In this document: in pieces, positions 38,592 through 53,803 of the stretch
Position numbering within the stretch: position 1 is the stretch's first letter
Layout of the letters: every line of letters begins with the position of its first letter
Assembly (NCBI GenBank): GCA_029225165.1
Contig: JAQXVY010000004.1
Coordinates: forward strand, 1 to 64,000
Direction: 5' to 3'
Source of the DNA: Oscillospiraceae bacterium
Lineage (GTDB): Bacteria > Bacillota > Clostridia > Oscillospirales > Acutalibacteraceae
DNA length: 64,000 bases
Notes under the pieces: model-generated
Database searches by the model: none
What the model saw: only the letters and a program-made list of their open reading frames with translations
What the model was told of the DNA's origin: nothing
Made by a program: the position numbers and the translations under genes

Positions 38592-38691
38592 AAAATCCCC
38601 CTAAGGTATTGTTAGAAAAACAGAAAGTATTATTCCTGTTTTTTGAATTTATCCCATTATCCATACAATAATGTCATTCATAGCCACCACT

Positions 38692-38852
38692 CTGTCATTC
38701 CGAGCTTGTCGAGGAATCTGAAAGGAAAGCAGTCGTGCATAAAGCGACACTATCAGGTTATATGAAAATATTATTTCTCTAACAAAATCGGTGACAGAGG
38801 AAGGGGATTCCTCGCTACGCTCGGAATGACAGGGTGTTGTGCGGAATGACAG
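38692..38852 (-). repeat. Dispersed repeat family A, copy 5 (inverted)
   Basis: ctgtcattccgagcttgtcgaggaatctgaaaggaaagcagtcgtgcataaag...ggggattcctcgctacgctcggaatgacag plus extra gcggaatgacag. Confidence 0.9.
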
Positions 38853-40232: not shown

Positions 40233-40415
40233 CTGTCATTCCGAGCTTGTCGAGGAATCCCCTTCCTCTATCACTCATTTTGTTAGAGAAATCATACTTT
40301 TATATAACCTATTGGTGTCGATTAATGCACTACTGCTTTCCTTTCAGATTCTTCGGTCGTTTCACTTCCTTAGAATGACAGGGAGAGAAGTTTCACCCCC
40401 CCTCAGAATGACAAG
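40233..40415 (+). repeat. Dispersed repeat family A, copy 6
   Basis: ctgtcattccgagcttgtcgaggaatccccttcc...cttagaatgacag plus extra cctcagaatgacaag. Confidence 0.9.
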
Positions 40416-42043: not shown

Positions 42044-45000
42044 ATGAGAAAAATATGTAAACCATTATCAATGCTGTTGGCGCTTGTTTTGCTGGCTACA
42101 ACTGCAACATTCTCAGTTCTTTCTGCAACAAATGATTACAATTCGAGTGGGGCTGATATTGAAGTGGAAGCAACATCTGCATACACAAATTCAGGCGAAA
42201 GCTACAATACTTACAGCGGAAACGACCTTGGTGCGGTTTATTCCAAGGACTCCACAACATTTAAGGTGTGGGCTCCGTCTGCTACAAAGGTACAGCTAAA
42301 GCTGTACAACACAGGTTCCGACAGCGAAACAGGAGCCGGTGTAATCGGTACATACGATATGTCCAAGGACAGTACAAACGGCGTTTGGTCAATTACCCAA
42401 AGCGGTGACCTTAACGGTAAGTACTACACATATCTTGTAACCGTTAACGGTACAACAAAGGAAACCCGTGATGTATATGCCAATGCCGCCGGTGTAAACG
42501 GTAGGCGTTCAATGGTTGTTGACCTTAGCAGTACCAATCCTGACGGCTGGTCAAACGACAGGCATATTCTCTTTGACAATGCTCCCGAGGCTGCAGTTTG
42601 GGAGGTTTCCGTAAGGGACTTTTCCATTGACAGTACATCAGGTGTGGACGCTGACAAGCGTGGTAAATATATGGCGTTTACACAGCACGGAACAACCCTC
42701 AACGGTGCCGGTGTTCTCAAGACAGGTATAGATTACCTTATTGAAAACAATATTAACTGTGTTCAGATTATGCCAATGTACGACTTTGGCTCTGTTGACG
42801 AAACAAAGGGCGGACAAAACTGGGGATATGACCCAATGAACTACAATGTTCCCGAGGGCTCCTTCTCCTCAAACCCATATGACGGTGCTGTTAGAATCAA
42901 AGAGCTTAAATCTATGATTAAGGCACTTCACGATGCAGGCATTTCCGTAATTATGGATGTTGTTTACAACCATACCTACAACACAAGCGACTCTGCATTT
43001 GAAAACACTGTTCCGGGCTACTACTACAGAATGAACGGAAGTACATTCTTAAACGGCTCAGGCTGTGGAAATGTTACAGCATCTGACAAAACAATGTACA
43101 GAAAGTATATGATTGATTCTGTAAAATACTGGGCAAACGAGTACCATATTGACGGTTTCCGTTTTGACCTTATGGGCTGTCACGACTATACTACAATGAA
43201 CAACATCCGTGCAGAGCTTGACAAGATTGACAAGCGAATCATTATGTACGGTGAGCCTTGGATGGCTGACTGGGGTGGCGGAAACGGTATTGCAAATTCC
43301 TCTGCTGCTATTATGGATAATGCAAGCAAGTTAAATCCAAGGGTAGGATGCTTTAACGATAAGATGAGAAATGCCCTGAAGGGTGGCACAAGCGACAAAT
43401 CCTCAGGTTTTATTCAGGGTTCAACCTCAAGCACAGCAGATGTTAAAGCCGGTTGTATGGCTCATACATCATCAATTCTTGGTAAGTGGTCACAAGCTCC
43501 AAGCCAGACAGTAACCTACAACTCCTGTCACGATAACCTTACCCTTTGGGATAAGATTTTGTATTCACAGGGAAGCACAGATTACAACGGTTCCAACGGA
43601 ACATTCCTTGCAATGAACAAACTTTCTGCGGCTCTTGTTCTCACTTCACAGGGAGTTGCCTTTACACAGGCAGGTGAAGAATTTGCAAGAACCAAAAGAG
43701 GTGACGAGAACTCCTACAACACAGGTGACGCTGTAAACAAAATTGACTGGACACGAATTTCACAGTATTCAAGCCTTAGGGAATACTACAAGGGTCTTAG
43801 ATTAATCAGACAGGTTTACAGTCCGTTTACAGACGGAACAAACACATCTGTTGGACAGTCATACTTTTCAGGCTCAAACTCCGTAATTGCATACACAATG
43901 CAGAACAAAACTGCAAACGCCGCTAACGAGTGGGGAACAGTTGCTGTTATTGCAAACAACAGCGCCTCTACTCAGTCTGTAACACTAAAGGCAAGTACAA
44001 CACTTCCAACCTCTTGGGCAACAATAGTTAACGGTTCAAGTGCAGGACTTAAGAACTTGGGCACTGTAACAGGCACAACAATCTCTGTTCCGGGAAGAAC
44101 AGCAATGGTGCTTGTTGACTTGGCGTCCTTTAACGAAAAGAATATTCAGGGACCAACTACAACTGTTCCGACTACTTCTACACCGGCTAACGGAACTGTT
44201 ACTTGGAATACAACAAAGATCAAAGGCTTTGCTGACGGTGTAGCGTATGAGGATTTGGCAGGTTCAACATCAAGAATTACAAAGACAGTTGTTCCTGAGG
44301 ACGGATACGAGATTGCATATGTAAAGGTTGTTACAGGCGGTGCAGATGTTACATCAACTGCATACAATTCTGCAACAGGTATAATCGACTTTACCCGTAA
44401 CGGCAACGCAGAGATTACCTTGATTGCAACAAAAATTCCATCTACTCATCTTTACGGGGATACTAACGAGGACGGAAAAATCAATGTTAGAGATGTAACA
44501 ACTATCCAAAAGTATATTTGCAACCCTGACGACTCCTTAAGTGATGTTGGAAAGAAAGCATCAAATGTTAACGGTGACGAGGGAATAGATGTTCAGGACG
44601 CAACTGTTCTGCAAAAGTATATCGCCAAGGTTATCACTTCACTTCCTGTTGGCGACTCTTTCTCTGATGAAAAACCAACATTTACAATTCCAACAGAAAC
44701 AACAACTTCTACAACAGCTACCGTTCCTACAAGCACACAAACATCACCAACAAATCCTTCCGGTTCAATTACAGTCAACTTTGTATCAAATGTTGACAAT
44801 GGTAATGAAAGATGGGCTGCATATTGCTGGACAGACACAAACAATATGTGGTTTGATGTAGTTAACGGACAGGTTACTGTTCCAAGCAGTATGGAGAATA
44901 TTATCTTTGTAAGATTTGACGGCACCTCCACAGAGAATAAGTGGGATGAAGAGGGCGCAACAGTTAAATATGTTTGGAATCAGACTGACGACTTATTACT

Positions 45001-45076
45001 CGGCTCGGGTTCAACCTACACAGTTACCGGCTGGGGCGACGGCTGGGGTGCACCCCTTGAAGGCTCTTGGTCATAA
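42044..45076 (+). CDS. Secreted type I pullulanase (CBM48-GH13) with dockerin and C-terminal putative carbohydrate-binding module
   Basis: Signal peptide; KVWAPSATKVQLKLY (CBM48-like); QNWGYDPMNYNVPEGSFS pullulanase signature; GFRFDLMGCHD; dockerin DTNEDGKINVRDVTTIQKY / NVNGDEGIDVQDATVLQKY. Confidence 0.93.
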   Translation: MRKICKPLSMLLALVLLATTATFSVLSATNDYNSSGADIEVEATSAYTNSGESYNTYSGNDLGAVYSKDSTTFKVWAPSATKVQLKLYNTGSDSETGAGVIGTYDMSKDSTNGVWSITQSGDLNGKYYTYLVTVNGTTKETRDVYANAAGVNGRRSMVVDLSSTNPDGWSNDRHILFDNAPEAAVWEVSVRDFSIDSTSGVDADKRGKYMAFTQHGTTLNGAGVLKTGIDYLIENNINCVQIMPMYDFGSVDETKGGQNWGYDPMNYNVPEGSFSSNPYDGAVRIKELKSMIKALHDAGISVIMDVVYNHTYNTSDSAFENTVPGYYYRMNGSTFLNGSGCGNVTASDKTMYRKYMIDSVKYWANEYHIDGFRFDLMGCHDYTTMNNIRAELDKIDKRIIMYGEPWMADWGGGNGIANSSAAIMDNASKLNPRVGCFNDKMRNALKGGTSDKSSGFIQGSTSSTADVKAGCMAHTSSILGKWSQAPSQTVTYNSCHDNLTLWDKILYSQGSTDYNGSNGTFLAMNKLSAALVLTSQGVAFTQAGEEFARTKRGDENSYNTGDAVNKIDWTRISQYSSLREYYKGLRLIRQVYSPFTDGTNTSVGQSYFSGSNSVIAYTMQNKTANAANEWGTVAVIANNSASTQSVTLKASTTLPTSWATIVNGSSAGLKNLGTVTGTTISVPGRTAMVLVDLASFNEKNIQGPTTTVPTTSTPANGTVTWNTTKIKGFADGVAYEDLAGSTSRITKTVVPEDGYEIAYVKVVTGGADVTSTAYNSATGIIDFTRNGNAEITLIATKIPSTHLYGDTNEDGKINVRDVTTIQKYICNPDDSLSDVGKKASNVNGDEGIDVQDATVLQKYIAKVITSLPVGDSFSDEKPTFTIPTETTTSTTATVPTSTQTSPTNPSGSITVNFVSNVDNGNERWAAYCWTDTNNMWFDVVNGQVTVPSSMENIIFVRFDGTSTENKWDEEGATVKYVWNQTDDLLLGSGSTYTVTGWGDGWGAPLEGSWS

Positions 45077-45121
45077 TTGGCTTATTTCGCAGAAAATCGA
45101 AATAGAAAAATAATAAAATTT

Positions 45122-45155
45122 GGGCGTACCCATATGGGTGCGTCCTTTTTTGCAT
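45122..45155 (+). terminator. Terminator after pullulanase
   Basis: gggcgtaccca-tat-gggtgcgtcc followed by ttttttgc. Confidence 0.75.
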
Positions 45156-45192
45156 ATAGCTTTCTCTGTAATTCCGAGGATACCCTCTCATC

Positions 45193-45372
45193 CTGTCATT
45201 CCGAGTTTGTCGAGGAATCCCCTACCTTTACCACCGACTATGTTAGGGAAATCATACTTTCATCTAACCTGTCAGTGTCGATTTATGCACTACTGCTATC
45301 CTTTCAGATTCTTCAGTCGCTTTGCTCCCTCAGAATGACAGAGAGGAAAAATTTGCTCCCTCAGAATGACAG
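45193..45372 (+). repeat. Dispersed repeat family A, copy 7
   Basis: ctgtcattccgagtttgtcgaggaatcccctacc...ccctcagaatgacag plus second ctccctcagaatgacag. Confidence 0.92.
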
Positions 45373-45630
45373 AGAAGATGAATTTCATTTCCACCACATT
45401 TTTTTGTATAAGTTTTATAAAAATAACCATTTTACTTGTGAAGTATTTATTTTCGTTGTAAATATGAACAAAATATTAACATAAGATTTGGTGATGATTA
45501 CCATTTATTTCTATTTGTACTTATGATAGACTAAATTAAAACGTTTTATTTATATACTGTTAACATTTTGATAGTATATATTTAATATAAGAACATATAA
45601 CAAAACAAAATTTTAGGAAGGAGAACAATT

Positions 45631-48600
45631 TTGAAAAAAGGTAAGTTGACAAAATTAATGGCAAGGGCATCAACTGCTGTTATTTTGGCGTTTATGACTG
45701 CTATATCCTGCTTTTCTGTTATTGCTGTAAATACAGAAAATGCGGATACCGGCGCTAATTCAGACTTAGTAGAATCCGGTGAACAGCTTACACAGAATAA
45801 GGACTATTACCTTATCGGTACCTTTAACAACTGGGCAAAGAGTGACCCCGACTGGAAGTTGACAGGAGATAGTTACGGTAACTGTTATACCGGCACTTTT
45901 ACGCTTACAGGCTCCGAAACTAATTACCAATTCAAGGTATATAACAGTGACGGAAACTACTACTCTGCAAAAGGTCACTGTTTTAACAGTAGTAATACTG
46001 TTAAAACAGGACTCGTTTCAGGTGCCAATAATGACCAGATTGAGTGTATTGCTACCTCAGGTTCAATTACCCTTAATGTAAAGCTCTACTGTGAGTACAG
46101 CGGTGACAGCCGTCTTGAAATCAAACAGAGCATATCAGGAAGCGGTGGGGTTACTGAAATTACCAAGGGAAATACCACAGATTCCGGGGTGTACAGTGCA
46201 AATATTGACATTGAAAACCAAACCGGCGGTACAGAGATTATTTCTGTAAACGGTTCGTTCTATGACTACTATATGGACGAGGAAATAAGGAATGGCGGAC
46301 GCTGGCGCAGTAGTCTGACAGGCTATTACAGGTCTGTTGAAAACGGCAACGAGGCTGCCGCCCGTGAGCCTTTTGAATGCTTTAACAAGGCTTTAGGTGA
46401 GTATAGTTCCCTTAACAGCGATTGGAACTATCCGCTTTACTTTGGTAACTTCTATAACAAACCTGATGATTATACAGGCAGAGGATTGGGTGGACTGAAA
46501 AAGTTTAAAATAATACCAAACGATTCAAATGCCACAACATCAACAGTTAACGGCTCTGTTTCTGCTCTTGTTGACACCACCCTTAACAGTGACGGTATGC
46601 TTACTGCAAACGGAGTTACACTCCCTTACTTTAACGCCAAATGGCTTAAAGATAACGGATACGGCACAGTCATTAACTCGCCTTTCCCAATGAGGAAGTC
46701 CCAGACTGCAAAGGGCAACGATTACTTTGAGTTTGACAGTAACAATGGTAAGGATAACTGCTACTTTAGCGGTTACTCCACAAACCAGTACACAATGAAC
46801 TACGCCTACAATTTAAACGAGTACAAGGTTAAGGACGCACTAAGCGGATTTTCAGACGAAGGTGACGGATACGGATTTTTCCCATTTGACCGTTCAACCG
46901 AGCATAACGGAAATGCCTATGACTTTGGCTTTGGTATGCGACTTGACATTGACTTTACCCTTGGTGAAAACGGCACAATCGGCAGTGGTGCAAATAAAGA
47001 GAATACACAGTTTAAATTTTCAGGTGACGACGACCTTTGGGTATATCTTGACGGTGTACTTGTCCTTGATATGGGCGGTGACCACAAAAAGTCCGGCGGC
47101 TTAATTGACTTTGCCAAAAAGAAGTCCTATGTAAACAACATAGACACTTCCTACCAGGAAGATAAAGAAAACGCTTTGAATTATGTTGAAGACACAAGTG
47201 TTTCAGGCTACGGATGTTCAGCAGAGTTCCCACAGCTTTTTGCAAACAATGCAAACACAACAAGCACCTATGCTTTGGGTACTTCAGAATTTGACAATAA
47301 CAACCCTAATGTAAAGCATACCCTTACAGTTTTCTATATGGAAAGAGGTATGATTGAGTCAAACCTTAGTGTTGGCTTTAACTTTGTTCCTGCAAAGGAC
47401 TCCCTAAAGGTAACTAAAACCGTTGACACATCGGAAGTTAACCCTCGCCTTGCTGACAAGGTTGAGAATTTAGATTCCTTTGGCTATGCAGTAAAGAACG
47501 CACCTGCTTTGGATGGTGTTCCTACAGATATTTCAAACAAAAACTATACCTTTAACGACAGCTCAGACGGACACAGCTACTATGCTGTTACAGGCGGTAA
47601 TTCATTCTCCTTGGCAAACGGCGATAGTGCTGTTTTCAGCGAACAGTTTGTTCCCGGTTCGTATATTCAGGTTACCGAGAATGACTCTCCAAAGGATACA
47701 ATTGTTACATTAAACCAAGACAGACTGCTTTTCTTTGACCCGTCAGGATGTACATGGTTCGGTGACAGCGGTGCTGTTCCTGCAATAGCACAGAATTATG
47801 ACGGTACAACACCTTCTAATTACAGTTTGATGTCATCCTATAAGGTTGACGGAAAAACATATTACTACTACCCGATTTCCGACACCACAACTACATTTAC
47901 CATAGCAAGAAAAACTACAAATGGTATATACAACAGATTTAAGTTTGATGTTGAGGCTGATGATAACGGAAAACTAACAAGTAACTATATTAAAGCCGGT
48001 AGTGTATGGAACGGAGATACCGAGGGACAAAACACCTGCCAAACATATTCTTCAACCGACACAAAGGGCATTACATACACAAAGTTTACTAACGCCTATC
48101 CCGACACAACCCAAAGTGTGATTAAGACAAGCAACAGAAGTAAAATTGCTTACAGTCCTTCTTGGAGTCTTTACGATATTTCTGCAAGTAACGAAACTTC
48201 TGAATCTAACTTAGTTGAGTCAGGCACAGGAGAAGAATCGTCACTATTCCAATATATCAACAAGTCTAATGACGAAATGCTTTCTACACATATGCTGTTG
48301 TCATATGTAAACACAGTATATACAAACGATATTACCGTTAACAAAACAGTTGTTGACAAGGACGAAAAAGTACTTTCCGATGACAATACAGAATTTACCG
48401 TAAAGCTCCTTGTTGACCTTGATGATGACGATATATACGAGGACTACGGATTAACCGGAACAATCAGTCAAAATAATCCTTATGTATTCAGGGGTATTCC
48501 ACAGGGTGTTGACTATCAGATTGTTGAGGAAGATTCGTACGGATACACCAACTTAACGGATGTAATTGAAGGTACTCTTGGCAAAGAAAGTGCCCGACAC

Positions 48601-49608
48601 ACCTTTACAAACCGTAAGGAAGAGGCAAAGTACACTCCTGCTGTGACCAAGACTCTTGACGGTGAAAACTACTATGGTGAAAAATTCACATTCACCTTAG
48701 AGGGTATGGAGTCAATCGTCCTTGGCAATGATGAAACACTGGACACAACGGAAATTGGAAGTCAAACAGTTACAAAGATTCCGTCAGAAACTCCCGGCAA
48801 GGTCACTTTTGAAAGCATTACATATGACGGAGAGGGTACTTACCTTTACAAAATCACAGAGGGAAGCGTAAACGACACTGACTATCAGACTGACAGTGAT
48901 GCAATTATCCTAAAGGTTGTAGTAAGCCGAAATAACGACAATACCCTTAGTCTGACTCCTACATATTACAAGGGAAATCTTAACGATTACTTGGTTGATT
49001 CAGAGAACGGCGACTTTGTAACATTTGACTATGAATCATTTATGGATAGAAATGCAACCGATACCCCAACCTTTGAAAATGTTTCCACACCCGGCTCTGT
49101 TACAATAAACAAAACAGACGGTGAGGGAAATGCCCTTGGTGATGTTACTTTTGCCCTTTACAAGGTCAGCGGTGACGGTGCTGATGTTTCCGGATTAACA
49201 TCAACAGGCGAAACCACTTCCAACGAAAACGGTGTAGCACAATTTAATAACCTTGCTATTTTTACTGACGACAGCAAAACCAGTAACGAAAGCGGTATTA
49301 CCGACTATACTAAGGAATACCAATGGTATTGTGTGAAAGAGGTTTCAACTAAGGAAGGTCATATTAAAGACCCGGAGATGCAGTACTTCTGCCTGCCTAT
49401 GGCAGACTCAACCACAGGGGAGATGAAGTACAGCATTACTCTTGATTATGTTAACCCTGTTATTACAGTACCTATGGCAAGCGGTACTCCAACAACATTC
49501 TTTATGATTTTAGGAATGTGCATTGTGGGCTTGTCACTATTCTCGGGCGGATGCTACATAGTTGGCACAAGGAGAAGAAAATCCGTAAACTGTCGCCACG
49601 GCAGATAA
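45631..49608 (+). CDS. Large secreted pilus tip-like adhesin (starch-binding-like, fibro-slime and Cna-B/SpaA-like domains; C-terminal membrane anchor)
   Basis: TTG start; signal peptide; YYLIGTFNNWAK; fibro-slime-like FKFSGDDDLWVYLDGVLVLDMGG; SVTINKTDGEGNALGDVTFALYKV; C-terminal hydrophobic helix + RRRK. Confidence 0.85.
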   Translation: MKKGKLTKLMARASTAVILAFMTAISCFSVIAVNTENADTGANSDLVESGEQLTQNKDYYLIGTFNNWAKSDPDWKLTGDSYGNCYTGTFTLTGSETNYQFKVYNSDGNYYSAKGHCFNSSNTVKTGLVSGANNDQIECIATSGSITLNVKLYCEYSGDSRLEIKQSISGSGGVTEITKGNTTDSGVYSANIDIENQTGGTEIISVNGSFYDYYMDEEIRNGGRWRSSLTGYYRSVENGNEAAAREPFECFNKALGEYSSLNSDWNYPLYFGNFYNKPDDYTGRGLGGLKKFKIIPNDSNATTSTVNGSVSALVDTTLNSDGMLTANGVTLPYFNAKWLKDNGYGTVINSPFPMRKSQTAKGNDYFEFDSNNGKDNCYFSGYSTNQYTMNYAYNLNEYKVKDALSGFSDEGDGYGFFPFDRSTEHNGNAYDFGFGMRLDIDFTLGENGTIGSGANKENTQFKFSGDDDLWVYLDGVLVLDMGGDHKKSGGLIDFAKKKSYVNNIDTSYQEDKENALNYVEDTSVSGYGCSAEFPQLFANNANTTSTYALGTSEFDNNNPNVKHTLTVFYMERGMIESNLSVGFNFVPAKDSLKVTKTVDTSEVNPRLADKVENLDSFGYAVKNAPALDGVPTDISNKNYTFNDSSDGHSYYAVTGGNSFSLANGDSAVFSEQFVPGSYIQVTENDSPKDTIVTLNQDRLLFFDPSGCTWFGDSGAVPAIAQNYDGTTPSNYSLMSSYKVDGKTYYYYPISDTTTTFTIARKTTNGIYNRFKFDVEADDNGKLTSNYIKAGSVWNGDTEGQNTCQTYSSTDTKGITYTKFTNAYPDTTQSVIKTSNRSKIAYSPSWSLYDISASNETSESNLVESGTGEESSLFQYINKSNDEMLSTHMLLSYVNTVYTNDITVNKTVVDKDEKVLSDDNTEFTVKLLVDLDDDDIYEDYGLTGTISQNNPYVFRGIPQGVDYQIVEEDSYGYTNLTDVIEGTLGKESARHTFTNRKEEAKYTPAVTKTLDGENYYGEKFTFTLEGMESIVLGNDETLDTTEIGSQTVTKIPSETPGKVTFESITYDGEGTYLYKITEGSVNDTDYQTDSDAIILKVVVSRNNDNTLSLTPTYYKGNLNDYLVDSENGDFVTFDYESFMDRNATDTPTFENVSTPGSVTINKTDGEGNALGDVTFALYKVSGDGADVSGLTSTGETTSNENGVAQFNNLAIFTDDSKTSNESGITDYTKEYQWYCVKEVSTKEGHIKDPEMQYFCLPMADSTTGEMKYSITLDYVNPVITVPMASGTPTTFFMILGMCIVGLSLFSGGCYIVGTRRRKSVNCRHGR

Positions 49609-49620
49609 ATGATTCAGTTT

Positions 49621-49790
49621 ATTAGGGCTTGTTTAATAAATGACAAAACGCCCAGAAAAGCGGATATTTTTCCGCAATACTGCGTTATTTTTCCTCGAAA
49701 TACGCCAGTATTCCATCGAAAAAATGCCTTGTCTTGCGAAAAAATCTCTCGCTTTTTGTGCATTCCGCTATTTATTAAACAAGCCCTAAT
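49621..49790. mobile_element. MITE-like inverted-repeat element, family C
   Basis: Perfect 21-bp terminal inverted repeats attagggcttgtttaataaat / atttattaaacaagccctaat; internal palindrome; core shared with family B. Confidence 0.85.
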
Positions 49791-49823
49791 TAAAAAATAT
49801 ATATTTAAAAGGAGAAAAAAGAA

Positions 49824-51206
49824 ATGAAAAAGACATTTATGAAAATTATGGCAGCTGTTCTTGCTGTATTGATTATGGCTGTTGCTATACCATTCGGCGC
49901 AGGCGCAGCCCTCACAAGCGGAAACAGTTATATTTTTACACTCAAGTGTGACAAGACAGACTTTGGCTTCACAGTTTATCAGCTTGCAACTATCGACACA
50001 ACAACCGGTGATGTAACAGTTACCGACGGTGTTGCTGACGCTGTTAAAACGGCTATCGAAAACGGTAGCTCAGCTTCTGCAATTATCAGCGCCGCTGACG
50101 CAACAGAATCACTTGGCTCTGTTTCCGACACATTCCAGCCTACAGATGCAAGCACAACAAAGGATTTTAGCACAGTTCCCGGTTACTACTATGTAAAGTG
50201 CACACGTATGCCACAGGGTGCCTCTGCTGCATCTTCACTTATTGTAACACAGTATGAGAACAATGCTTGGGTTGAAAATGCCGGCACTATTGATGTAGGC
50301 GGTAAGGTTGGTACTGTCAGCCTTGACAAGAAGATTGTTGAAAATAATAAGGAAGTAAAATACACATCTGCAAGTGTTGGCGAAACAGTAACATTTAAGC
50401 TCAAGGCTTCTGTTCCCAGCAATGTTTCCGAAAAACTTACAGAAATGACTATCACAGATACAATGGAAGCAGGTCTTTCTGCAACAGATGTAAATATTGT
50501 ATCAGTTAAGCAGGGTACAGCAGACATTAAATACTCAAAGGTTGATGTTCAGGACGCAACATTCGGTATCAAGATTGACAGCAATGTACTTACAAAGGAT
50601 TCCTTCTACCAGAATGGTGATGTAGTTGTAACATTTACAACTATGGTTACTCCTCAGGCAACTGTTGGTCGTGACAGCAACGACAACACAGTTGGTATTC
50701 AGTATAAGACAACCGGAAATGTTAAAACTCAACAGGGTCCTACTGTTCAGGTGTTTACATTTAATGTAGAGGTAATTAAGGTTGACTCAAATAGCAACAA
50801 GCTTCAGGGTGCAAAATTTGGTCTTTACAGCCAAAGAGATTGCAGTGATAACAGTAAGCTTGCAGAGGCAACAACAGACAGAGCGGGTACAACAAACTTT
50901 GGCGGAAAACAGCTAAAGGCAGGTACATACTATGTAAAAGAGCTTGAGGCTCCAAAGGGTTATATCCTTGATTCAACTGCTTATCCTGTAACTATCGAAC
51001 CTAACTACGATACAACAGGTGGCACGGTAACAGTAAGAGATTATCAGGCAAATTCAGACGGAAAAATCACAGTTGAGAACATCAAGATTTCTGCTCCACA
51101 GACAGGTGGTATGGGCACAATGATGTTCACAATCGGCGGTGCAGCTCTTATCGCAGCAGCAGGCGTAATGTTTGTTATGCTTAAGAGAAAAAAGACTTCC
51201 AAGTAA
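49824..51206 (+). CDS. SpaA-type major pilin / isopeptide-forming pilin-like protein with LPXTG-like sorting signal
   Basis: Signal peptide; Cna-B E-box-like TYYVKELEAPKGYIL; C-terminal SAPQTGGMGTMMFTIGGAALIAAAGVMFVMLKRKK. Confidence 0.92.
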   Translation: MKKTFMKIMAAVLAVLIMAVAIPFGAGAALTSGNSYIFTLKCDKTDFGFTVYQLATIDTTTGDVTVTDGVADAVKTAIENGSSASAIISAADATESLGSVSDTFQPTDASTTKDFSTVPGYYYVKCTRMPQGASAASSLIVTQYENNAWVENAGTIDVGGKVGTVSLDKKIVENNKEVKYTSASVGETVTFKLKASVPSNVSEKLTEMTITDTMEAGLSATDVNIVSVKQGTADIKYSKVDVQDATFGIKIDSNVLTKDSFYQNGDVVVTFTTMVTPQATVGRDSNDNTVGIQYKTTGNVKTQQGPTVQVFTFNVEVIKVDSNSNKLQGAKFGLYSQRDCSDNSKLAEATTDRAGTTNFGGKQLKAGTYYVKELEAPKGYILDSTAYPVTIEPNYDTTGGTVTVRDYQANSDGKITVENIKISAPQTGGMGTMMFTIGGAALIAAAGVMFVMLKRKKTSK

Positions 51207-51234
51207 TTAAACATTAATGATAAGTAATAGTTTC

Positions 51235-51262
51235 GGGATGCGGGCAACCGCATCCCTTATCT
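51235..51262 (+). terminator. Hairpin downstream of pilin
   Basis: gggatgcgg-gcaa-ccgcatccc followed by ttatcttta. Confidence 0.65.
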
Positions 51263-51345
51263 TTATAATTGCAACAGTTCTTGAAATATACGGCAGTTTA
51301 CCTTATAATTAAAGGTGATGAACGCATTTATTTAAGGAAGATTTT

Positions 51346-52245
51346 ATGAAGAAAAAAATTGGACTGATTTTTGTAATTCTTTTGTTTGTCGTTGGCATCG
51401 GAATAATGTCCTACCCAATGATAAGCGCAATGATTAACAACCACGCCCTTGCACAGGAGAGCCGGGTTTATTATAATACCGTAAAAAATATGGATAATAA
51501 GAGGTACAGGGAACTGCTTTCACAGGCGAAAAGCTACAACGAAAGCCTTACCGACAATGTTATTATCACCGACCCGTTTGATGAAGAGGCATACAGAAAA
51601 ATCGGCGCAAACTACGAAAAAACCTTAGATGTTGACGGTAAGGGTCTAATCGGCTATGTTGAAATTCCAAAGATTAGCGTTAATCTTCCTATCTATCACG
51701 GTACTTCCGAAAAAATCCTGCAAAAGGGAGCAGGTCATCTCCAAAATACATCTCTGCCTATTGGTGGAAAAAGCACTCATTCGGTAATTTCTGCCCATAC
51801 GGGAATGCCCACAGCCACAATGTTTGATTACCTGACAGAAATGAAAAAGGGAGATGCCTTTTACATCCGTGTTATCGGCAAAACTTTAAAATATCAGGTT
51901 GACCAAATCAAGGTTGTACTTCCGGAGAAAACACAGGATTTGCACATCGTCAAAGGTGAGGACCACATAACATTGCTCACCTGTACACCTTACGGACTTA
52001 ACACCCACAGGCTACTTGTCCGTGGAGTGAGAGTGCCTATGGATAAAAGTGATGATGAGCAAACTGTTCAGCAGGCAACCTTTAGGGACGGATATATGTA
52101 CCTCTTTGGCTACCGTATTCCTTATTGGGTTGTGACAATAGTGATTGTGGGCTTTGTAATCCTTGTAGCAACTATTGTTTTTGCTGTGGTGAGGAAGAAT
52201 AAAAAGAAACTTCAAACATCAGTTGACATCAACGGTAGTGAGTAA
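51346..52245 (+). CDS. Class C-like sortase
   Basis: Lid-like TDPFDEEAY; ISAHTG His motif; TLLTCTPYGLNTHRLLVRGVR; C-terminal TM. Confidence 0.92.
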   Translation: MKKKIGLIFVILLFVVGIGIMSYPMISAMINNHALAQESRVYYNTVKNMDNKRYRELLSQAKSYNESLTDNVIITDPFDEEAYRKIGANYEKTLDVDGKGLIGYVEIPKISVNLPIYHGTSEKILQKGAGHLQNTSLPIGGKSTHSVISAHTGMPTATMFDYLTEMKKGDAFYIRVIGKTLKYQVDQIKVVLPEKTQDLHIVKGEDHITLLTCTPYGLNTHRLLVRGVRVPMDKSDDEQTVQQATFRDGYMYLFGYRIPYWVVTIVIVGFVILVATIVFAVVRKNKKKLQTSVDINGSE

Positions 52246-52257
52246 GGGGGCAAAGGA

Positions 52258-53046
52258 GTGAAAAATAAAAAAGTACGAGTGACATTTACAATTATTGCAA
52301 CTGTTATGCTTATTGCAGGGATAGGACTGATTTTGTTCCCGACCATTTCCAACTGGTACGGAAAAAGTGTGGCTAAGGATATTTCAAACACCTTTGACCA
52401 AAGCACAAGTAATCAAATGGATGGTTCCTTTAGGGAAGCAAAAAAGAAGGGCATTGTTGATGATGAGGGATACCTTAAAGACGGTTCCTCGGACTACCCC
52501 ATATATTTCAAGGCAGATATTGAAAGGTTAAAGCGTGACAGCATAGAGTATAACGAAATGCTGAAAACAAAGCAAAGGGAAAAGCTGACAGACGAAATTG
52601 CCTATGAACAGCCCTCCCTAAAGCTTAGTGAATATGGAATTTTTAACGGTGTTTACGGCTATGTTGAGGCACCTGCCATTGATATGAAACTGCCGATTTA
52701 CTTGGGCACAGGCAGAAATCATATGGAGTATGGCTCGGCACACCTGACATATACATCACTGCCTATCGGCGGTAAGGACACAAACTGCGTACTTGCAGGA
52801 CACACAGGATATGTGGGCAGAATATTCTTCGATAACATCCGAAATTTGAAAATCGGAGATGAAATTAAGGTTAAAAATTACTGGTCAACGCTAAAATATT
52901 CTGTAACAGAAACGAAAGTAATTACACCAAAACAGATGGATGACATTTTCCTTAAAGAGGGTAAGGATATGCTGATTTTGATGACCTGTATTAAGACAGA
53001 CGGCAGTGGATTTGACAGATATTTGGTATTTTGCGAAAGGAAGTAA
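52258..53046 (+). CDS. Second sortase
   Basis: GYVEAPAIDMKLPIYLG; LAGHTG His motif; LILMTCIKTDGSGFDRYLVF Cys/Arg motif; GTG start. Confidence 0.9.
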   Translation: MKNKKVRVTFTIIATVMLIAGIGLILFPTISNWYGKSVAKDISNTFDQSTSNQMDGSFREAKKKGIVDDEGYLKDGSSDYPIYFKADIERLKRDSIEYNEMLKTKQREKLTDEIAYEQPSLKLSEYGIFNGVYGYVEAPAIDMKLPIYLGTGRNHMEYGSAHLTYTSLPIGGKDTNCVLAGHTGYVGRIFFDNIRNLKIGDEIKVKNYWSTLKYSVTETKVITPKQMDDIFLKEGKDMLILMTCIKTDGSGFDRYLVFCERK

Positions 53047-53048
53047 TT

Positions 53049-53426
53049 ATGGATAAGGAACTTAACAGATTGCAAAGGGAAGAGGCAGGAAAAAGGCTGA
53101 AAATTTTGGGATACCCACAGGATGTTTGCCAAAAATATAAGGACAAATCTTTTATGCTAAAATTACAAGAGGCAGACAGCGGAGATGTCCCCGAAGAAAT
53201 TAATATTGCACCGTTCCTAAAAATGGAGCAGGACGAAAACATATTTACCTACCTTTACAGATATTCTGTAACAGAAGATGGAAAATTGCAGTTAAGACTG
53301 TTTTTCGTCACAGACAAGGTGGATGAGTGGGAAAAGGACAGAGAAACCTTGTGCAGTGCAATGGAAAAGGGAATAGATACGAAAGACGCAAAATCAATAT
53401 TCCGTACATTTGTCCGCCCAATGTGA
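53049..53426 (+). CDS. Hypothetical protein, probably co-transcribed with sortases
   Basis: ATG 2 nt after sortase stop; RBS aaaggaag within sortase 3' end. Confidence 0.7.
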   Translation: MDKELNRLQREEAGKRLKILGYPQDVCQKYKDKSFMLKLQEADSGDVPEEINIAPFLKMEQDENIFTYLYRYSVTEDGKLQLRLFFVTDKVDEWEKDRETLCSAMEKGIDTKDAKSIFRTFVRPM

Positions 53427-53566: not shown

Positions 53567-53643
53567 CGAGGTGTAACTCAGTTTGGTAGAGTGCTTGGTT
53601 TGGGACCAAGATGCCGCAGGTTCGAGTCCTGTCACCTCGACCA
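53567..53643 (+). tRNA. tRNA-Pro (anticodon TGG)
   Basis: cgaggtg...cttgg-tttggga-ccaag...ggttcgagtcc...cacctcg-acca; CCA encoded. Confidence 0.96.
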
Positions 53644-53726
53644 TAAATTCAGCATACAGATGTGTGCTGAATTTTTGCTATTTAGTTTTATCACAAGAAT
53701 GTGACAAAACAGGACAAATTCCATAA

Positions 53727-53803
53727 CGAGGTGTGGCTCAGTTTGGTAGAGCGCTGCGTTCGGGACGCAGAGGCCGCAGGTTCGACTCCTGTCACCTCGA
53801 CCA
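53727..53803 (+). tRNA. tRNA-Pro (anticodon CGG)
   Basis: cgaggtg...ctgcg-ttcggga-cgcag...ggttcgactcc...cacctcg-acca; CCA encoded. Confidence 0.96.

Follow-up and report, generated by a model that had tools for sequence, protein, structure and literature searches.

Does the pilus locus found next to a dockerin-bearing pullulanase in an amylolytic Ruminococcus encode an organelle that holds starch, and does the enzyme belong to the same system? Bacteria of the Ruminococcus bromii type have a keystone role in the degradation of resistant starch; they are thought to attach to its granules through proteins of the amylosome, among them Sas6, Sas20 and Sca5. The locus considered here lies in the window, i.e. 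the whole stretch of 64,000 nt that was analysed (contig 4, bases 1-64000), which comes from an Oscillospiraceae genome of 1.97 Mb that is 88% complete and belongs to the same genus as Ruminococcus bovis. An initial annotation of the window had recognized a pullulanase with a dockerin and an extra C-terminal domain, followed by a fibro-slime adhesin, a SpaA-like pilin and two sortases. All these genes were recovered at the same coordinates, on a single (+) strand, and profile matches bear out their identity, those of the pullulanase being to TIGR02104, CBM48 and PF00404 (Table 1). Overall, the data are somewhat better accounted for by a starch-adhesion pilus, typical of the amylolytic R. bovis/R. 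bromii group and standing beside a cell-docked debranching enzyme, than by the other readings weighed below; the tip of this pilus would bind starch.

A putative X25/CBM48-type module at the pilus tip

The predicted tip adhesin starts at a TTG codon preceded by GGAAGGAGAACAA, and a contig search with this protein as the query returned a single locus. Its N-terminal head module is 79% identical in the sister genome SUG987, and two other genomes have it at 38-48% identity; G13, W18, Y61 and S62 are invariant in the alignment. Because the module is kept across these genomes together with invariant residues, its GTFNNW stretch is more than a chance motif. G13 and W18, which correspond to a GxFNxW-type signature, are also invariant over 15 diverse modules. 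A profile of these 15 modules matched, among known structures, SusF (4fe9) at 1.4e-8 and the glycogen-binding domains of AMPK-beta at about 1e-3; since this profile was assembled by hand and includes only five close relatives of the window module, the SusF relation has good support for the class as a whole and, through the class, for the window member. With a profile of four sequences, the module type was found in 42 of 100 genomes of the genus. Beyond pilus tips, 17 of the 20 module-bearing proteins inspected also have CBM26 and/or a dockerin (8 were checked by Pfam), and the nearest non-pilus relative (L194) displays a weak match to AMPK1_CBM (0.0054).

The SusF and AMPK-beta relations and the occurrence of relatives inside CBM26 or dockerin proteins uphold the CBM20/48-like N-terminal domain proposed in the initial annotation and support the assignment of adhesin residues 51-172 to the X25/CBM48 type, from which we infer starch binding by the tip head. 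The absence of any CBM-like fold, which that annotation had named as evidence against itself, is contradicted at the level of sequence profiles. The accessory region of a GH13 amylase (8dge) was considered as a further relative of the module and is not relied on, the phmmer match obtained with a single sequence (E 2.4e-4) being lost with the four-sequence profile. In another genome (G251), a dockerin protein (L214) bearing four or more X25-like modules in tandem was observed, which makes it a Sas20-like candidate.

Starch-binding modules on pilus tips of the genus

Fibro-slime genes were searched in 100 genomes of the genus, 70 of which had at least one, and their surroundings were then compared. 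Those with a SpaA-type pilin gene close downstream were kept as tip adhesins, giving 44 proteins that come from 41 sampled genomes of the genus, the window, SUG987 and G030, the last of these being a genome from a different genus. On 20 of these 44 tips, CBM26 (PF16738) was detected by Pfam within the N-terminal 900 residues, which supports the earlier idea of a starch-type pilus tip, and an in-house profile run over the whole length detected it on 24; the window adhesin itself has no CBM26. By comparison, Pfam did not detect CBM26 in any of the 27 fibro-slime proteins taken from other genera, whose sequences reach ca. 500 residues upstream of the match (20/44 versus 0/27, Fisher 8e-6, or 3e-4 when the single other-genus CBM26 adhesin is moved across).

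The GTFNNW module occurs on the tips of the window, SUG987, R. bovis and G030, and in the latter it is found together with CBM26 in one adhesin with a SpaA pilin downstream. A different conserved N-terminal module, of about 140 aa and ending near NCIKITGWDNS, was found on 9 of the 44 tips (loci with a module of this type: L063, L074, L075, L128, L133-L135, L141, L142 and L166); the one that was tested (L063) had no Pfam match. The in-house module profiles gave zero matches against shuffled tip proteins. The generalisation of starch modules on tips to the genus is stronger than the claim initially made for the window. Whether the R. bromii/bovis group as a whole possesses starch-adhesion pili, with exchangeable heads (CBM26, X25/CBM48-like or the further N-terminal module) and a shaft swapped independently, that would provide a second, long-range hold on granules beside the amylosome, is evenly poised. 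If true, the starch-tipped pilus would be an adhesion organelle so far unconsidered and could explain the first capture of granules. The claim is broad in the genus and simple to test, and the cultured type strain R. bovis JE7A12 bears the whole locus, so that the idea can be addressed directly.

Other fibro-slime proteins were observed apart from these tips. Eight giant ones of 3500-4000 aa (L113-L118, L120 and L121) have 5-7 CBM26 each, with no pilin or sortase detected adjoining, and are possibly free or surface starch binders. Seven others of 1650-2860 aa (L123, L124, L126, L129, L130, L132 and L138), most with CBM26, form a recurrent pair with a dockerin-matching protein of ca. 300-360 aa encoded ca. 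70-220 bp further on. R. bovis has a second fibro-slime protein (G264, L150) of 1965 aa with SpaA domains, located apart from its pilus locus; several genomes have relatives (L147, L149, L151 and L154).

Linkage of the pullulanase and the pilus locus

Pullulanase orthologues (61-98% identity, nearly full length) were found in SUG987 and in 4 of the 100 genomes, one of which, G264, is taken to be R. bovis JE7A12. The order pullulanase, adhesin, pilin, two sortases and the gene at 53031, then tRNA-Pro, is kept in SUG987 and R. bovis, while in G218 the contig ends. Linkage is present in the window, SUG987 and R. bovis and absent in two of five resolvable genomes; since the pullulanase tree leaves the branching order of the orthologues open, its gain or loss cannot be polarised.

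The strong terminator-like hairpin found 3' of the pullulanase and the 555-bp gap that separates it from the adhesin, in which a dispersed repeat has a copy, make a common transcript unlikely, and the two are probably separate transcription units. A conserved pullulanase-pilus operon was rejected given this terminator and the location of the pilus elsewhere in G245 and G221. The coupling proposed in the initial annotation, which had taken a lack of synteny in relatives as the finding that would speak against it, thus stands for SUG987 and R. bovis and fails for G245 and G221: the pullulanase neighbourhood is a trait of this lineage and not a required operon. The repeat is about 125-170 nt long, bears inverted repeats at its termini (TGTCATTCCGAG...) and is MITE-like (resembling a miniature inverted-repeat transposable element). 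It has three copies in 7 kb with 82-87% identity, the other two being at 40233-40400 (direct) and at 38690-38839, or about 38710-38836 by a second delimitation (inverted).

Proposed mechanism and alternative readings

In the scheme that we propose, the class C sortases would polymerise the pilin and place the adhesin at the tip, whose head would bind the alpha-glucan of starch or glycogen and attach the cell to granules at pilus length. The pullulanase, expressed from its own transcription unit, would dock through its dockerin on a cohesin scaffold at the cell surface and cut the alpha-1,6 branches of the substrate held there; it is placed on such a scaffold and not on the pilus because no cohesin was found on the pilus proteins. 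Tips across the genus would bear interchangeable glycan-type heads, CBM26 being the commonest, so that the window locus would be one allele of a general starch-adhesion pilus.

Several observations weigh against a starch-binding tip. X25 lobes of Sca5 taken singly showed no binding (PMC9112005). The window module on its own matched no Pfam family at E values up to 5, CBM_48, X25_BaPul_like, CBM_20 and AMPK1_CBM included, the narrow four-sequence profile found nothing significant in the PDB, and the SusF match depends on the widened, hand-picked alignment. The structure prediction recommended in the initial annotation was run and proved uninformative (AlphaFold from a two-sequence alignment, pLDDT 51.5, no Foldseek match below 0.001). 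Eight of the 44 tips are devoid of any profiled module, the control fibro-slime proteins are partly cut at the N-terminus, and the species do not count as independent samples. The head might be a protein-protein or host-mucus adhesin, with the E-set module serving only as a beta-sandwich of structural or mucin-binding type and the fibro-slime/PA14-like domain recognising glycans of the host or of plant cell walls rather than starch, as could be expected from the lack of a significant single-family match, from the PA14-type domains present on 13 of the 44 homologues and from the fact that class C pili of gut and oral Gram-positive bacteria usually bind host tissue. This is considered rather unlikely, given that relatives of the module co-occur with CBM26 and dockerins and that the head module most often recognised on the tips is CBM26, a starch module for which the fibro-slime proteins sampled from other genera gave no match. 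Far less probable still is a pilus acting as the amylosome scaffold, with enzymes docked on its subunits: a dockerin pullulanase does adjoin the locus and sortase-anchored scaffoldins of R. bromii do bear cohesins (Sca2, Sca5; PMC5814915, PMC9112005), yet no Pfam cohesin family was found on the first 900 residues of the 44 tips or on the window pilin, and this reading was rejected.

Starch adhesion may also be real and the pullulanase be a neighbour by chance, the pilus locus having moved beside pulA once, and on this point the evidence is about equally divided. Dockerin genes are dense in the genus (8-75 per genome, about 40 per 2 Mb), a terminator lies between the two units, and in both G245 and G221 the orthologous pulA has its upstream neighbours (41249 and 40526) in place and the pilus elsewhere, an arrangement that also tells against a linked system. 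Against mere chance, R. bovis retains the linkage at 64% identity for the pullulanase and 43% for the adhesin, which indicates that it persisted over a long divergence, and in G290 a second, different dockerin pullulanase (L072 4211-9136; CBM48, GH13, MucBP and five CBM26) is located directly beside pilus sortases. Moreover, 9 dockerin genes were seen at 2 kb or less from 42 pilus loci when 2.7 were expected from each genome's own density, a threefold excess (P about 0.002) that is truly less significant than this value because the genomes are related.

Probable exchange of the shaft cassette

Around the pilus locus, the window and SUG987 are near-identical, with 98% identity for the pullulanase and 92-98% for the flanks. 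Along the adhesin, identity in bins of 50 residues is mostly 72-98% to about residue 1150 (two bins have 54 and 60%) and then falls to 20-36%; it is 35% for the backbone pilin and 58 and 63% for the sortases, and past them it is again 92-95%. One breakpoint is therefore inside the tip gene (sharp, near residue 1150) and the other 3' of the second sortase. Within the cassette, SUG987 and R. bovis (69% for the pilin, 82 and 88% for the sortases) are closer to each other than SUG987 is to the window, and since SUG987 is nearer to R. bovis in the cassette only, it is the window genome that probably took a new shaft cassette by recombination, with the head retained. No close donor was seen among the 100 genomes, in which the best pilin match was 42%.

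Gene content of the region

By its genes, the region 45631-53046 is a complete class C sortase pilus locus, for which polymer assembly is predicted. The fibro-slime domain of the tip scores 42.8 bits against TIGR02148, slightly below the cut-off of 45. The backbone pilin has an E-box (ELEAPKGY, residue 373), and its candidate pilin-motif region reads WVENAGTIDVGGKVG, in which the lysine is present in the context IDVGGK rather than YPK. The end initially assigned to the region, 53426, has to be corrected in that it takes in a small ORF beyond the sortases, although the same ORF accompanies the pilus locus in relatives; its product had no match in Pfam.

The pullulanase scores 638 bits against TIGR02104 (cut-off 504.5) and has its CBM48 at residues 62-146. 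Its N-terminus is signal-like as judged by eye, and this together with the dockerin is as expected of an amylosome enzyme. Profile searches of the source genome detected 18 dockerins and 14 CBM26 matches; two cohesin matches over the cut-off were obtained in a six-frame search, neither of which is reported by hmmscan of the ORFs of this 88% complete genome. A small single-cohesin-like protein with an Asn/Gly-rich linker and a C-terminal membrane anchor (L001 1396-2358) is a possible cell-surface anchor for dockerin enzymes. The WNQT-type domain at the C-terminus of the pullulanase was also observed in one pilus tip adhesin (L167) and in large CBM26 proteins (L114, L120, L123 and L132); domains of this type have no significant Pfam match and are possibly a new starch-associated module. 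An identity with CBM41 was not used for the pullulanase domain (AF2 pLDDT 68; 2j71 with E 0.043 and TM 0.38), unrelated cytolysin domains ranking higher.

Table 1. Features of the pullulanase-pilus region of the window
Coordinates	Strand	Feature	Evidence
42044..45076	+	Secreted type I pullulanase, 1010 aa (CBM48, GH13, dockerin, C-terminal accessory domain)	TIGR02104
44453..44623	+	Type I dockerin of the pullulanase, residues 804-860	PF00404, 41.1 bits; same position in a second search
44759..45073	+	C-terminal accessory domain of the pullulanase, WNQT motif, residues 906-1010	Relatives in L167, L114, L120, L123 and L132
45122..45145	+	Intrinsic-terminator-like hairpin, 10-bp stem and T-run, directly 3' of the pullulanase	Sequence
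45193..45360	+	Dispersed repeat copy, 168 nt, in the pullulanase-adhesin gap	Sequence comparison
45631..49608	+	Pilus tip adhesin, 1325 aa, TTG start, C-terminal sorting signal	Sequence and profiles
45781..46146	+	X25/CBM48-like module (YYLIGTFNNW...), adhesin residues 51-172	Profiles
46996..47409	+	Fibro-slime (PA14-related) domain, adhesin residues 456-593	TIGR02148 and in-house profile
48640..49020	+	FctA/Spy0128-like isopeptide pilin domain, adhesin residues 1004-1130	PF12892, 43.9 bits, over cut-off
49081..53040	+	Shaft cassette, probably exchanged: C-terminal ~175 aa of the tip with the backbone pilin and both sortases	Divergent from SUG987 between conserved flanks; versus L057 13450-17544
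49468..49485	+	VPMASG, putative tip sorting motif, then hydrophobic stretch and basic tail	Sequence; equivalent motifs in homologues
49824..51206	+	SpaH/EbpB-type backbone pilin, SpaA domain, APQTGG sorting signal	NF033902, 120.2 bits, and TIGR04226; over cut-off
51346..52245	+	Class C sortase 1	NF033745, 290.6 bits, over cut-off
52258..53046	+	Class C-like sortase 2	NF033745, 158.5 bits (cut-off 160)
53031..53426	+	Small protein of no assigned family	Gene found behind the pilus locus in SUG987, R. bovis and G221 as well
53567..53803	+	Pair of tRNA-Pro genes (TGG and CGG) a short way downstream	tRNA-Pro(TGG) conserved in position in SUG987 and R. bovis

Comparison with known systems

Sortase pili, fibro-slime adhesins, X25/CBM26 starch modules and dockerin pullulanases are each already known. 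The open-licence literature searched yielded no description of a sortase pilus whose tip binds starch (subscription journals were mostly outside this scope). Like Amy10 and Amy12 of the R. bromii amylosome (PMC5814915), the window enzyme is a secreted CBM48-GH13 pullulanase with a dockerin, from which it differs by having no CBM26, another C-terminal domain and an adjoining pilus locus; the survey of that amylosome makes no mention of pili (PMC5814915). Fibro-slime proteins of Fibrobacter succinogenes have been implicated in attachment to cellulose (PMC4668043) and the present adhesin would share with them a link to insoluble polysaccharides, although its substrate would be different and no sortase pilus is involved there, whereas a Gram-positive pilus tip is concerned here. 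In bifidobacteria, pilus genes rise on starch (PMC11286577) and pilin-related proteins are likewise linked to it (PMC13271388); the accessible parts of these two reports are expression-based and describe no starch-binding tip module.

Compared with SpaA/SpaH-type sortase pili, the window locus displays, from its genes alone, the same order of tip, pilin and two class C sortases, as well as isopeptide domains, an E-box and C-terminal sorting signals, while its head is X25/CBM48-like with a fibro-slime domain, its candidate pilin-motif lysine occurs in IDVGGK instead of YPK and the VPMASG of its tip is non-canonical. X25 modules of R. bromii Sas20 and Sca5 bind starch (PMC9112005). Compared with these and other X25/SusE/SusF and CBM48 modules, the window module is single, N-terminal on a pilus tip and too diverged for a Pfam match, and the second aromatic position of its type is apparently an invariant tyrosine, as judged from the alignment; it has in common with them the GxFNxW-type signature, the profile match to SusF 4fe9 and relatives that stand beside CBM26 and dockerins.

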